Shown here piece after piece: positions 12,369 to 17,914 of a DNA stretch of 23,464 nucleotides. The first letter of the stretch is position 1; each line of letters begins with the position of its first letter. Below the pieces are notes generated by a model. The model was not told where the DNA came from, ran no database searches, and saw only the letters and a list, made by a program, of their open reading frames with translations. A program made the position numbers and the translations under genes. Source of the stretch: a virus; IMG/VR virus record IMGVR_UViG_3300030329_002525, positions 1 to 23,464 of that record; one strand, 5' to 3'.

Positions 12369-12486
12369 GGTCGGAGGGAAGCATTACTCATATTCTGCCA
12401 AGGGCCGCGCTGCCGCTAAGAAGGAAGCTAAGCGCACTGGCAAGAAGATGACCAATACCAAAAAGAGTATGTCTAAGAAAAAATAA
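12361..12486 (+). CDS. Very small Lys-rich protein (41 aa)
   Basis: The ATG at 12361 has AGGAGG 6 nt upstream, the best ribosome-binding site in the area. About one third of the residues are Lys or Arg (RAAAKKEAKRTGKKMTNTKK), after a short N-terminal PKVGGKHYSYS. Similar tiny basic proteins occur in structural clusters of aquatic phages and may neutralise packaged DNA or bind nucleic acid (inference). It overlaps the gene before by 8 nt and the gene after by 1 nt (TAATG). Confidence 0.65.
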   Translation: MPKVGGKHYSYSAKGRAAAKKEAKRTGKKMTNTKKSMSKKK

Positions 12487-12911
12487 TGCCAAGATACGAC
12501 TACGCTTGCATATCTCCAGAATGCCGTGAGGAGCACACATTGGAACGGTCCTATCAGGATCGCACGAATGCCTCATGCTGTCCTAAGTGTGGGGCGAAGG
12601 CTGAGTATCAGTTTCCTGTTGGTGCAGCATTGGGCGTACAGGTTATGGAGCCGTATTATGATGAGGCTCTGGGATGTGATATAAATGGACACCAGCATAA
12701 AAAGAAGATCATGCGAGCACAGGGCGTCATCGAAGCTGGAGACTCTGTTCGTGGCGCTCGCAATTTTGATAAGCATGCTAAGCACCATATAAAACCACAG
12801 CCTCCACGAGGCATCGAGTATGCGCCACGTATTAAGCGGGATGCTAATATGGGCGTTCAAGCGGAAACAAAAACTGGAGAATGGAATTCTCCTAATACGA
12901 AAGATCTCTAA
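12486..12911 (+). CDS. FmdB-like zinc-ribbon protein
   Basis: 141 residues. The first 45 residues resemble the FmdB-type zinc ribbon: MPRYDYACISPEC with C8 and C13, then CCPKCGAKA with C32 and C35. A second region (EPYYDEALGCDINGHQHKKK) and a conserved-looking G-V-I-E-A-G-D turn follow, then a basic, His-rich tail. Zinc-ribbon proteins of this form are common beside phage scaffold and capsid genes, where their role is not settled. Start coupled to the previous stop (TAATG). Confidence 0.7.
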   Translation: MPRYDYACISPECREEHTLERSYQDRTNASCCPKCGAKAEYQFPVGAALGVQVMEPYYDEALGCDINGHQHKKKIMRAQGVIEAGDSVRGARNFDKHAKHHIKPQPPRGIEYAPRIKRDANMGVQAETKTGEWNSPNTKDL

Positions 12912-15277: not shown

Positions 15278-15718
15278 ATGCAGTTTACTCAGGTACACCG
15301 CACCGAGCAGGAAAAGGTTTTTATTTCTGTTCAGAATAACCAAGGTGCCGCTCTTCAGCCCGGTTACATTGTGGAATTTTCCGCGACTACGACTGATGCT
15401 GATCAGGGTCGCTTGGTTGAGCTTGTTGACGCCGCTGTTAATGCTACTCTTGGCATTGGCGCAGCGGTTGCAGGTGTTGTTGAAACGACCATCGCTACTG
15501 GCGAGGTTGGTCGTGTTCAGGTTTATGGTCCGGCTAATGTCCGTGCTGGCGCTTCGATTATCGCTAGCACTGCGGTAGTTGCTCAGGACACTGGCACCGT
15601 TGGTGCTGCTGTTCAGACGACGACCACGACTGCGGCTTATGCTGACGCCTTTATTGGGTGGACGCTGGAGAATGGCCCGAACGCCACGAACAGCACCGTT
15701 TTCATTAAGTGTCTCTAA
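15278..15718 (+). CDS. Head decoration-type protein (DUF2190-like)
   Basis: 146 residues with GAGGA upstream. The centre (GIGAAVAGVVETTIATGEVG, then RVQVYGPANVRAGASI) resembles the core of DUF2190-like phage head proteins, which form small beta-barrels on the capsid surface. Very high Ala/Val/Thr content and no Trp except near the end (FIGWTLENGP). Role: stabilising the expanded capsid (family inference). Confidence 0.6.
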   Translation: MQFTQVHRTEQEKVFISVQNNQGAALQPGYIVEFSATTTDADQGRLVELVDAAVNATLGIGAAVAGVVETTIATGEVGRVQVYGPANVRAGASIIASTAVVAQDTGTVGAAVQTTTTTAAYADAFIGWTLENGPNATNSTVFIKCL

Positions 15719-15742: not shown

Positions 15743-16648
15743 ATGTCTAATAAAGCAGAGCATGGGGTAGATATAGATCTATCCAAGTACAAAGTCCTTG
15801 TGGCTACTCCCAATTATACCAACACCTTTTCGGCAGAGGTATATGGGAGCCACATGGACTGCGTGCGACGATGGACCGAGTGGGACATTGACTTCAAGTG
15901 GATGGTTGTAGGTCGTACGTTTGTTCATTTTGCACGAACCGAGGCTTGCACCTTTGCGGTAGACAATGGATACACTCACATTCTGTGGCTTGATGATGAT
16001 GCCATCATTGGTCCCAGTGTTCTTCCAAAGCTGTTGAAGCACGACAAGGAAGTTGTAATCACTCCCTATCCTATGCGGAGACCACCGCATGAGATAGGCA
16101 TCTTGTCTTCAACGACTGGAGACTGGGAAGATCAGCAGAGCTATAGGAATTGGCAGGTTAAAGATATGTTGCAAGGACTGAAAGAGTGTGATGGTGGTGG
16201 AACTCATTGCATGCTCATGAAGACTTCGGTCCTTACAGACTTCTATGGCCCACCTGTTCTTGATGGACCCAAGCTTACTGACGCAGAATCTATGAGAACG
16301 GAAAATGACAAAGGGTACCCATACGTTGTTATGCCTAAAGTTGGCACAGAGGATATGTTCATGTGCCTTCGCTTGAAGCTTAAGGGCGTAAAGATCTGGT
16401 GCGATACAGATCTCTTTGCTTCGCACGTTGGATTTAATCCTGTCATTGGTCCGGGTCACGTAGAGCAGATGGAACTTTGGATGGCACAACCGGAGAATCA
16501 AAATGCAGAAACAATCGGGGTCCATAATAATATACCGGTGCTCAGTATGCGCGAAGGGTTTGGACACGACGCTGAGCAAGCAGAAGAGCAAGTGCCCGGA
16601 GTGCGGAGCCAACAGGTGGATGCACGCGGAACGTCTGCACTGGTATGA
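15743..16648 (+). CDS. GT-A-type glycosyltransferase with extended C-terminus
   Basis: 301 residues, AGGAG upstream. The N-terminus KYKVLVATPNYTN is the nucleotide-binding first strand of GT-A enzymes. W82-LDDD (82-86) is the DxD metal/nucleotide-sugar motif. TEDMFMC at 202-208 supplies the late ED motif, with a candidate metal His at 228. It would transfer a sugar from a nucleotide-sugar to an acceptor, here perhaps a virion protein, given its place among structural genes (inference). Modified phage DNA or host surface glycan are alternatives. Residues 254-301 are encoded over the next gene in another frame and look like non-domain sequence. No membrane segment is seen. Confidence 0.8.
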   Translation: MSNKAEHGVDIDLSKYKVLVATPNYTNTFSAEVYGSHMDCVRRWTEWDIDFKWMVVGRTFVHFARTEACTFAVDNGYTHILWLDDDAIIGPSVLPKLLKHDKEVVITPYPMRRPPHEIGILSSTTGDWEDQQSYRNWQVKDMLQGLKECDGGGTHCMLMKTSVLTDFYGPPVLDGPKLTDAESMRTENDKGYPYVVMPKVGTEDMFMCLRLKLKGVKIWCDTDLFASHVGFNPVIGPGHVEQMELWMAQPENQNAETIGVHNNIPVLSMREGFGHDAEQAEEQVPGVRSQQVDARGTSALV

Positions 16649-16763
16649 GATAGTTAAGGTTTGGAGAGAGACTGGGGTATGGTTTGTAGATCCTGAATCT
16701 AAATTCGCTAAATTCCTTTTGTTTATTGATAAGATAACACCGGGGAAAACAAAATGGGTTTAG
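16503..16763 (+). CDS. Zinc-ribbon protein (86 aa), nested in the glycosyltransferase 3' end
   Basis: The ATG at 16503 has CCGGAG 7 nt upstream and lies 146 nt inside the preceding gene, in another frame. Residues 11-38 form a rubredoxin/zinc-ribbon knuckle pair, C13-x2-C16 and C31-x2-C34 (CPECGANRW), with basic residues between. The remainder is aromatic-rich (WYEIVKVWRETGVWFVD). It ends overlapping the methyltransferase start by 10 nt. It may be an adaptor for the flanking enzymes or a nucleic-acid binder (inference). The cysteine pattern makes this frame the more constrained one in the overlap. Confidence 0.7.
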   Translation: MQKQSGSIIIYRCSVCAKGLDTTLSKQKSKCPECGANRWMHAERLHWYEIVKVWRETGVWFVDPESKFAKFLLFIDKITPGKTKWV

Positions 16764-17509
16764 ACGAAGAATACATTAATAGTCCAGAATACCACGAAGT
16801 AAAAGAGCAGGCTAGTGCGACAGGACAGGCTGCAACTACAGCCTCAAAGGTTTCATTTAGCTTAGATCTTTATAGTGGCACCAGTGGCCTGAATCAAGAT
16901 GGGATTGGATATATTGTTCTCCGTGGACAAATGACACCTCATGGCAGGTCAAAGGCATGGGAAATGAATCCCATATTTCCGGAGGCAATCTCAGTAAGAA
17001 TGGACTATTGGGGAATAGATGAAGGCGCAGCAGACCTGCTTCATGGGCTCGTAAGAGCAATACGACCAAGTGTTGTTCTTGAAACGGGCACACATAAAGG
17101 CAGAAGCACATCGGCAATGGCTTCCGCTTTAGTAAAGAATGGCACAGGGTCCTTGACTACAATAGATTCCATTGATTATGGACTATTTGAGAATGGGGCT
17201 CTTACAGAGCAAGAGAAGTCGATTGTAACACAGGTGATTGGCAAGACGCCAGAGGCATTTAATTCACCTGAAGTGAAGGATCTGTCTGGTATAGAGTTTG
17301 CATTTGTGGACGGTGATCACACGCTGGCTGGAATGTTGAGAGATATGAAATTTGTTGAATCAAGGATGGCAGAACGATGCACTGTAGTAATAGACAATGC
17401 CTTGGATGCCGGGTATCCTGACCTTGCTCGATATTTTAGCGATACCAAGACCGGGGTTTGCATTCCTACGATGAGCGGAATGCAAGTCATTGAACTGAAG
17501 AAGAAATAG
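16754..17509 (+). CDS. Class I SAM-dependent methyltransferase (Methyltransf_24-like)
   Basis: 251 residues, GGGG upstream. Motif I is VVLETGTHKGRST (107-119), and the motif II acid is D138 in LTTIDSIDYG. FAFVDGDHT at 182-190 is the typical DG-DH strand of the Methyltransf_24/cephalosporin-hydroxylase-like group, and VVIDNA at 211-216 is the next strand. These enzymes commonly methylate sugars or small molecules, which fits the glycosyltransferase two genes upstream: an O-methylated sugar on the virion is a reasonable hypothesis. The N-terminal 80 residues (NSPEYHEVKEQAS) are outside the core fold. A hairpin terminator follows. Confidence 0.8.
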   Translation: MGLDEEYINSPEYHEVKEQASATGQAATTASKVSFSLDLYSGTSGLNQDGIGYIVLRGQMTPHGRSKAWEMNPIFPEAISVRMDYWGIDEGAADLLHGLVRAIRPSVVLETGTHKGRSTSAMASALVKNGTGSLTTIDSIDYGLFENGALTEQEKSIVTQVIGKTPEAFNSPEVKDLSGIEFAFVDGDHTLAGMLRDMKFVESRMAERCTVVIDNALDAGYPDLARYFSDTKTGVCIPTMSGMQVIELKKK

Positions 17510-17535
17510 AGAATCCCGTGTGAGTGCGCGGGTTA

Positions 17536-17583
17536 GGGGTGTATGGGGATTTCGTTCCCGGTTGCCCCATGCGCCCCGCTTTT
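17536..17583 (+). terminator. Hairpin terminator after the methyltransferase gene
   Basis: GGGG-TGT-ATGGGG (17536-17548) pairs with CCCCAT-GCG-CCCC (17565-17577) across a 16-nt loop, then GC and TTTT (17580-17583). Ten G-C-rich pairs with a 3x3 internal loop and a short U-tract suggest partial termination or attenuation. The 90-bp gap 17510-17599 holds only this and the ribosome-binding site of the next gene. Confidence 0.5.
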
Positions 17584-17599
17584 AAAAAGGAAGCGAAGC

Positions 17600-17914
17600 A
17601 TGTACCTTGGACAACAAGTTTGGTCGGAAACCACTGCTGGAACGAACTCTGGCGCGGTTGCAACGCATAGTGCAATAACGGATCGTCAGCACTTTGTTAC
17701 GTCTATCTCTGGTCACACAGATGCAGACAGCATTATAACAATTAAAGATGGAACGACGATTGTTTGGGAAACAAAGATCGATGTGTCAGTTGAAGGCACC
17801 TCGTTTTCTTTTACTACCCCCTGTATCCCGATCACTCCGGGAGCTAATGCAGTGGGTACGATAGCATCGTCAAGCTCAGATAGTCAGGTGAACCTTACTG
17901 GCTACACCATTTAA
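17600..17914 (+). CDS. Small beta-rich structural protein (104 aa)
   Basis: The start at 17600 is chosen over an in-frame ATG at 17543, because AAAAAGGA stands upstream and the longer version would run through the terminator hairpin. Predicted beta-sandwich with Thr/Ser/Ile alternation (HFVTSISGHTDADSIITIKDGTTIVWETK). No cysteine cluster. It resembles small receptor-like or decoration domains of environmental phages in style, but I do not recognise a family. Likely a virion component. Confidence 0.65.
   Translation: MYLGQQVWSETTAGTNSGAVATHSAITDRQHFVTSISGHTDADSIITIKDGTTIVWETKIDVSVEGTSFSFTTPCIPITPGANAVGTIASSSSDSQVNLTGYTI

Follow-up and report, generated by a model that had tools for sequence, protein, structure and literature searches.

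The results presented here reveal that a viral virion operon carries a glycosyltransferase gene (GT) and a four-cysteine zinc-ribbon gene (ZR) as a core pair, to which a methyltransferase gene (MT) is added in many relatives but not in all. It is probable that these genes form a late-expressed glycan-decoration cassette, whose most likely acceptor is a virion protein at the capsid surface. The window, that is, the whole stretch of DNA analysed, is a 23,464-base viral record (IMG/VR record IMGVR_UViG_3300030329_002525), for which the phage collection contains no close relative at the DNA level. Pfam and PHROG profiles identify a terminase, a major capsid protein (MCP; phrog_9953, 9e-61) and a SU10-type adaptor in the window. 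GT, ZR and MT are three overlapping open reading frames between the capsid gene and the adaptor gene. The original prediction, made from the letters of the sequence, was thus right about their coordinates and about their placement between head and tail genes. The features discussed below are:

15278 to 15718, plus strand: P146, a small protein gene directly after the MCP and P98 genes, present in all slot-bearing relatives
15743 to 16648, plus strand: GT, a GT-A fold glycosyltransferase of 301 amino acids, assigned from profiles, an AlphaFold2 model and motifs
16503 to 16763, plus strand: ZR, a four-cysteine zinc-ribbon protein of 86 amino acids (CxxC...CxxC), nested in the 3' end of GT
16754 to 17509, plus strand: MT, a Methyltransf_24/COMT-type class I O-methyltransferase of 251 amino acids, assigned from Pfam and a model, patchy in relatives
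17536 to 17577, plus strand: a conserved RNA hairpin with a 13-bp covarying stem and a ATTTYGTTCCCGGTTG core that is fixed among close relatives, located after the cassette and ahead of the next small virion gene
17600 to 17914, plus strand: a member of the ORF123 family, a small gene of the virion operon that forms the downstream border of the slot and is a synteny anchor in relatives

P146 lies invariably upstream of the cassette, and this position makes it a putative capsid cement or decoration protein; it has no match in Pfam, PHROG or the PDB. Judging from homology with L001 at 3146, the true start of the ORF123 gene is probably the ATG at 17600 and not the listed start at 17543. Farther upstream, at 12486-12911, the window encodes a second zinc-ribbon protein, which is FmdB/Zn_ribbon_8-like (8e-5, below cutoff), precedes the genes for the putative scaffold and the capsid, and is kept in relatives. 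The close relatives of GT and MT that were found are all uncultured. Two scans of bacterial and archaeal genomes with the GT and MCP profiles yielded no relatives, and so provide no link to a host.

GT matches Pfam Glyco_tranf_2_3 weakly (0.005; 17.3 bits, below the gathering cutoff of 27) and phrog_1574, a family without assigned function, at 1e-6; the GT of L041 matches phrog_1574 at 4.5e-14. The GT profile gave chance matches only against PDB sequences. The AlphaFold2 model (pLDDT 79, pTM 0.80) has a clear, Rossmann-like GT-A fold. Its best PDB match is A197 of the archaeal virus STIV (Foldseek 2.1e-9; Z 19.3, 172 residues, 2.3 A); LH3, Mnn9, a mimivirus GT and COLGALT1 come next, and the fold matches are mostly enzymes that modify proteins or glycoproteins. 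GT contains the motifs DDD (D84-86), GTED (201-204) and H228. DDD, the DxD metal/nucleotide motif, and GTED are invariant across 24 GT sequences. The protein ends in a tail of ~40 residues, disordered in the window model, and then a conserved C-terminal peptide. This -[S/N/A]L[V/I]-like peptide occurs in nearly all GTs of a set comprising the window (~16600-16645) and 26 homologues. It is conserved for its own sake, since it is kept also in clades where the overlap of GT and ZR is only a few bases. It may serve for docking, or as a signal for degradation or a protease tag. The GTs of L020, L021, L024, L028, L032, L080, L092, L129 and L136 have an internal insertion between DDD and the SYRN segment, mostly with two cysteine knuckles, i.e., an inserted ribbon besides the separate ZR gene.

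ZR has the two CxxC knuckles of a general zinc ribbon, which make up a predicted zinc site known from sequence. It falls below every curated family cutoff (Zn_ribbon_8, 18.6 vs 34.4 bits; FmdB, 17.8 vs 31.3). Among 27 homologues all four cysteines are invariant and Trp39 nearly so; the first knuckle of the L020 protein has a wider spacing. ZR is preceded by a GGAG Shine-Dalgarno-like site and overlaps GT by 146 nt in the +1 frame (16503-16648), so that the GT gene contains the complete coding sequence of its cysteine motif. The overlap is ~120-146 nt, also in the +1 frame, throughout the window clade and only a few bases in other clades (e.g., L009 and L056). Differences between the window and L001 per codon position are 0.10, 0.05 and 0.47 in the GT-only part, and 0.29, 0.17 and 0.29 in the overlap. 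This flattened pattern indicates that both frames of the overlap appear to be constrained.

MT overlaps ZR by 10 nt and matches Methyltransf_24 (PF13578) at 3e-14 (54.2 bits, above the cutoff of 26.3). Its match to the NCBIfam rhamnosyl O-methyltransferase NF045824 is weak (20.6 bits vs a curated cutoff of 400). The core of the AlphaFold2 model has a pLDDT of about 90, and the first 80 residues are poor. The model resembles COMT-type O-methyltransferases (Z 17-19), among them the sugar O-methyltransferase MycF (17.5). D186 and N215 are invariant in 17 sequences and D214 is nearly so; by analogy with cation-dependent COMT-type enzymes, the three would be metal-site-like residues. MT shares its fold and these residues with PF13578/COMT-type enzymes such as SafC and MycF, but differs from them in an extra N-terminal region of ~80 residues, modelled with low confidence. 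The original prediction of a GT-A enzyme, a four-cysteine ribbon and a Methyltransf_24-like enzyme in overlapping or abutting genes is therefore borne out by the A197-like fold and phrog_1574 profile of GT, the invariant ZR cysteines, the Pfam profile and COMT-type fold of MT, and the two overlaps. GT and MT are presumably active enzymes; fold similarity alone does not prove activity.

A bait search with GT returned 30 loci, and a search with the capsid protein, a bait that does not select for the cassette, returned 72 loci. The slot is conserved with either bait. The gene order in window-type relatives is capsid, P98, P146, GT, ZR, MT where present, small gene(s), P189 and adaptor. A tree was made of 27 distinct GTs from viral contigs, and ZR accompanies GT in all 27 lineages, in the same slot, which is flanked by the putative capsid-cement gene upstream and by tail genes downstream. 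MT is intact in 18 of the 27, absent in six (L002, L005, L012, L041, L045 and L092) and internally deleted in three (L056, L094 and L110). The state of MT requires about eight changes on the GT tree, of which five are forced by well-supported branches. The presence of ZR in all lineages and the patchiness of MT indicate a GT-ZR core with MT as an accessory. The internal deletions (L056:7267-7512, L094:2556-2801 and L110:1951-2490) are in frame, with GT and ZR intact, and may be snapshots of an accessory gene in decay.

With MT as bait, MT was always found with ZR and GT where the surroundings were readable; L121 starts at ZR, with GT out of reach. Independent occurrence of the three genes in relatives had been named as an outcome that would speak against a unit. 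GT and ZR were not found apart and MT was found only beside them, but GT-ZR often occurs without MT. The notion of a fixed three-part unit is not supported, since MT is an accessory, the order is GT-MT-ZR in L046, L129 and L136, and MT is doubled in L007, L122 and L128. ZR is doubled in L080.

The slot is replaced or expanded by other sugar-modifying enzymes in relatives, which upholds the original idea of a sugar-modification cassette. A second GT and a NAD-epimerase are inserted in L018, between GT and a ZR that is still kept, and also in L020 and L128. The NAD-dependent sugar epimerase of L018 (7715-8797) has an embedded cysteine-rich, ribbon-like insertion. Sulfotransferase-like proteins occur in the slot of L032 (weak match) and L104 (strong match); L104 is more distant, and its slot contains a ribbon and a GT-methyltransferase fusion in addition to the sulfotransferase. 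A sister clade (L067, L069, L072, L075, L083, L087 and L088) has 55-61% capsid identity and the same slot flanks. Its slot encodes a small protein of 60-93 amino acids, Cys/His-rich in most members and not in L088, together with a phrog_1574-type GT and a Glyco_trans_1_2 protein. Pfam was applied to L067, and the genes of the other members were assigned by similarity. In several members of the sister clade GT2 is fused to Methyltransf_11. Fusions of glycosyltransferase and methyltransferase in relatives are indirect evidence that both activities belong to one pathway. The combination of the GT2-Methyltransf_11 fusion and Glyco_trans_1_2 after the capsid genes was seen in the sister clade and a distant relative (L067, L069, L075, L088 and L107).

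Enzymes of sugar modification are known from other virion operons. The Cluster O mycobacteriophage Corndog encodes an O-methyltransferase, two GTs and a GlcNAc-transferase (gp35-gp38) in its virion operon; capsid modification was proposed by the authors, and the enzymes were seen in infected cells and not identified in virions (PMC4351075). Corndog thus resembles the window in that its structural operon includes both an O-methyltransferase and GTs. However, the Corndog genes lie between portal and protease whereas the window cassette follows the cement gene, and the word zinc is absent from the Corndog paper (PMC4351075). A tblastn search against phages gave no Corndog match to the window GT (E<=1e-5) or MT (E<=0.01). 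Glycans on the capsid and tail tube of mycobacteriophage virions were reported by Freeman et al. 2023, according to PMC12619734. The coat protein of STIV is glycosylated, with A197 as the proposed enzyme (PMC10551542). STIV combines the closest solved fold to GT with a glycosylated major coat protein, but A197 is only 16% identical to GT, STIV belongs to an unrelated lineage, and PMC10551542 does not describe A197 as part of a GT-ribbon-MT cassette.

The family phrog_1574, matched by the window GT and its relatives, offers a further comparison. GTs with tblastn similarity occur right after the capsid gene in the spring-water phages MW202496 and MW202711, and in the methanogen virus vir323 a phrog_1574 gene is flanked by the prohead protease gene and the tail genes. 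These three differ from the window in that their annotations show neither a ribbon nor a methyltransferase next to the GT. A GT-ribbon-methyltransferase unit was not found in the literature searched, in which few subscription papers were covered. The earlier statement that the unit is not a described system accordingly holds for the GT-ribbon pair, undescribed in these sources, but not for an O-methyltransferase with GTs, for which Corndog is a precedent. Virion decoration as a concept was known already from Corndog and STIV; the families, the obligatory GT-ZR pair and the modular slot set this cassette apart.

The cassette would operate late in infection. GT would take the sugar of a nucleotide sugar supplied by the host and attach it, during assembly, to an acceptor that is produced simultaneously. 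The likeliest acceptor is a protein of the capsid surface, for example the major capsid protein or the adjacent P146. ZR would be an obligatory partner of GT, either as a fold-stabilising subunit or as a docking adaptor, the latter being the role that the original prediction gave it. MT, when present, would O-methylate the sugar to cap or diversify it. We infer the virion protein as acceptor, the sugar as the substrate of MT and the binding of ZR to GT. A virion target is preferred to host glycans because of the position in the virion operon and the precedents of STIV and Corndog. More tentatively, a large group of uncultured marine phages may reserve this slot for virion glycans, as a module with exchangeable contents that is based on the obligatory GT-ribbon pair. 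The ribbon and/or the C-terminal peptide of GT would dock the enzyme on capsids as they form, and the sugar coat of the particle would change as methyl-, sulfo- and epimerase genes rotate through the slot.

Phage GTs that alter the host O-antigen are well known (PMC12619734), and the epimerases and sulfotransferases of the slot suit any glycan target. The cassette could, on these grounds, modify a host envelope glycan such as LPS or a capsule receptor late in infection, for seroconversion or superinfection exclusion. This is unlikely, given that the slots examined contained no recognisable flippase or polyprenyl-linked enzyme, that the genes lie beside capsid genes inside the virion operon in relatives, and that the best fold matches of GT include protein-modifying GTs. 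Hypermodification of phage DNA with glycosylated and methylated bases is far less likely still. DNA-glycosylating phage GTs exist, according to the citation of Pyle et al. 2024 in PMC12619734, but the cassette lies among structural and not replication genes. In addition, seven relatives of 41-56 kb, whose records are possibly incomplete, lack a thymidylate-synthase-like gene for hydroxymethyl bases.

With a lesser degree of probability, ZR may act outside the sugar pathway, as a small regulator or as a factor in assembly, the overlap of its gene with GT being incidental. Phage regulators often contain zinc ribbons, the FmdB-like ribbon at 12486-12911 is another ribbon upstream in the window, and the ZR profile weakly matches RNA polymerase subunit P. 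Yet ZR stays with GT in every lineage, even where the order is GT-MT-ZR or other genes intervene, as in L018. In three ZR-bearing records of 41-53 kb the strong ZR match is at GT, and only one of them has a further match elsewhere, a marginal one. A chance neighbourhood of unrelated moron genes is very improbable. The gains or losses of MT on the GT tree, at least five, would be expected of such genes, but the universal pairing refutes chance for GT-ZR, MT as bait was recovered only beside the pair where its surroundings were readable, and both reading frames of the overlap are constrained.

If virion decoration is correct, a widespread group of uncultured marine phages glycosylates its own particles, using sugars that vary and are methylated or sulfated, and virion glycosylation reaches beyond mycobacteriophages and archaeal viruses. 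The GT-ribbon pair after the capsid gene would then be a testable genomic marker, and as an obligatory pair it may represent a new type of protein glycosyltransferase made of two parts.

Finally, a conserved, covarying RNA element follows MT, before the next virion gene. The original prediction of a hairpin terminator was half right: there is a hairpin (the 13-bp stem; 17505-17600, MFE -45.1, z -4.9), but its tail, GCTTTTAAAAA, is TTTT followed by AAAAA and has only four T. An intrinsic terminator was taken to consist of a G+C-rich hairpin with at least 5 consecutive T after it. The reading as an intrinsic terminator was rejected because the hairpin is without a T tract and has a conserved loop; the terminator scan does not list it. 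No Rfam family matched it above chance. It could be a translational operator or an mRNA-processing element. All 16 pairs are kept in L001, L002, L040 and L041, three of them via changes on both sides, and the CCCGGTTG loop side is invariant in close relatives. Hairpins of the same kind, with a CGGTT loop side and different stems, occupy this gap between genes also in L045, L050, L009, L032 and L088. Positions in relatives include L001:3083, L002:1981, L040:490, L045:5429, L050:10421 and L009:7974.
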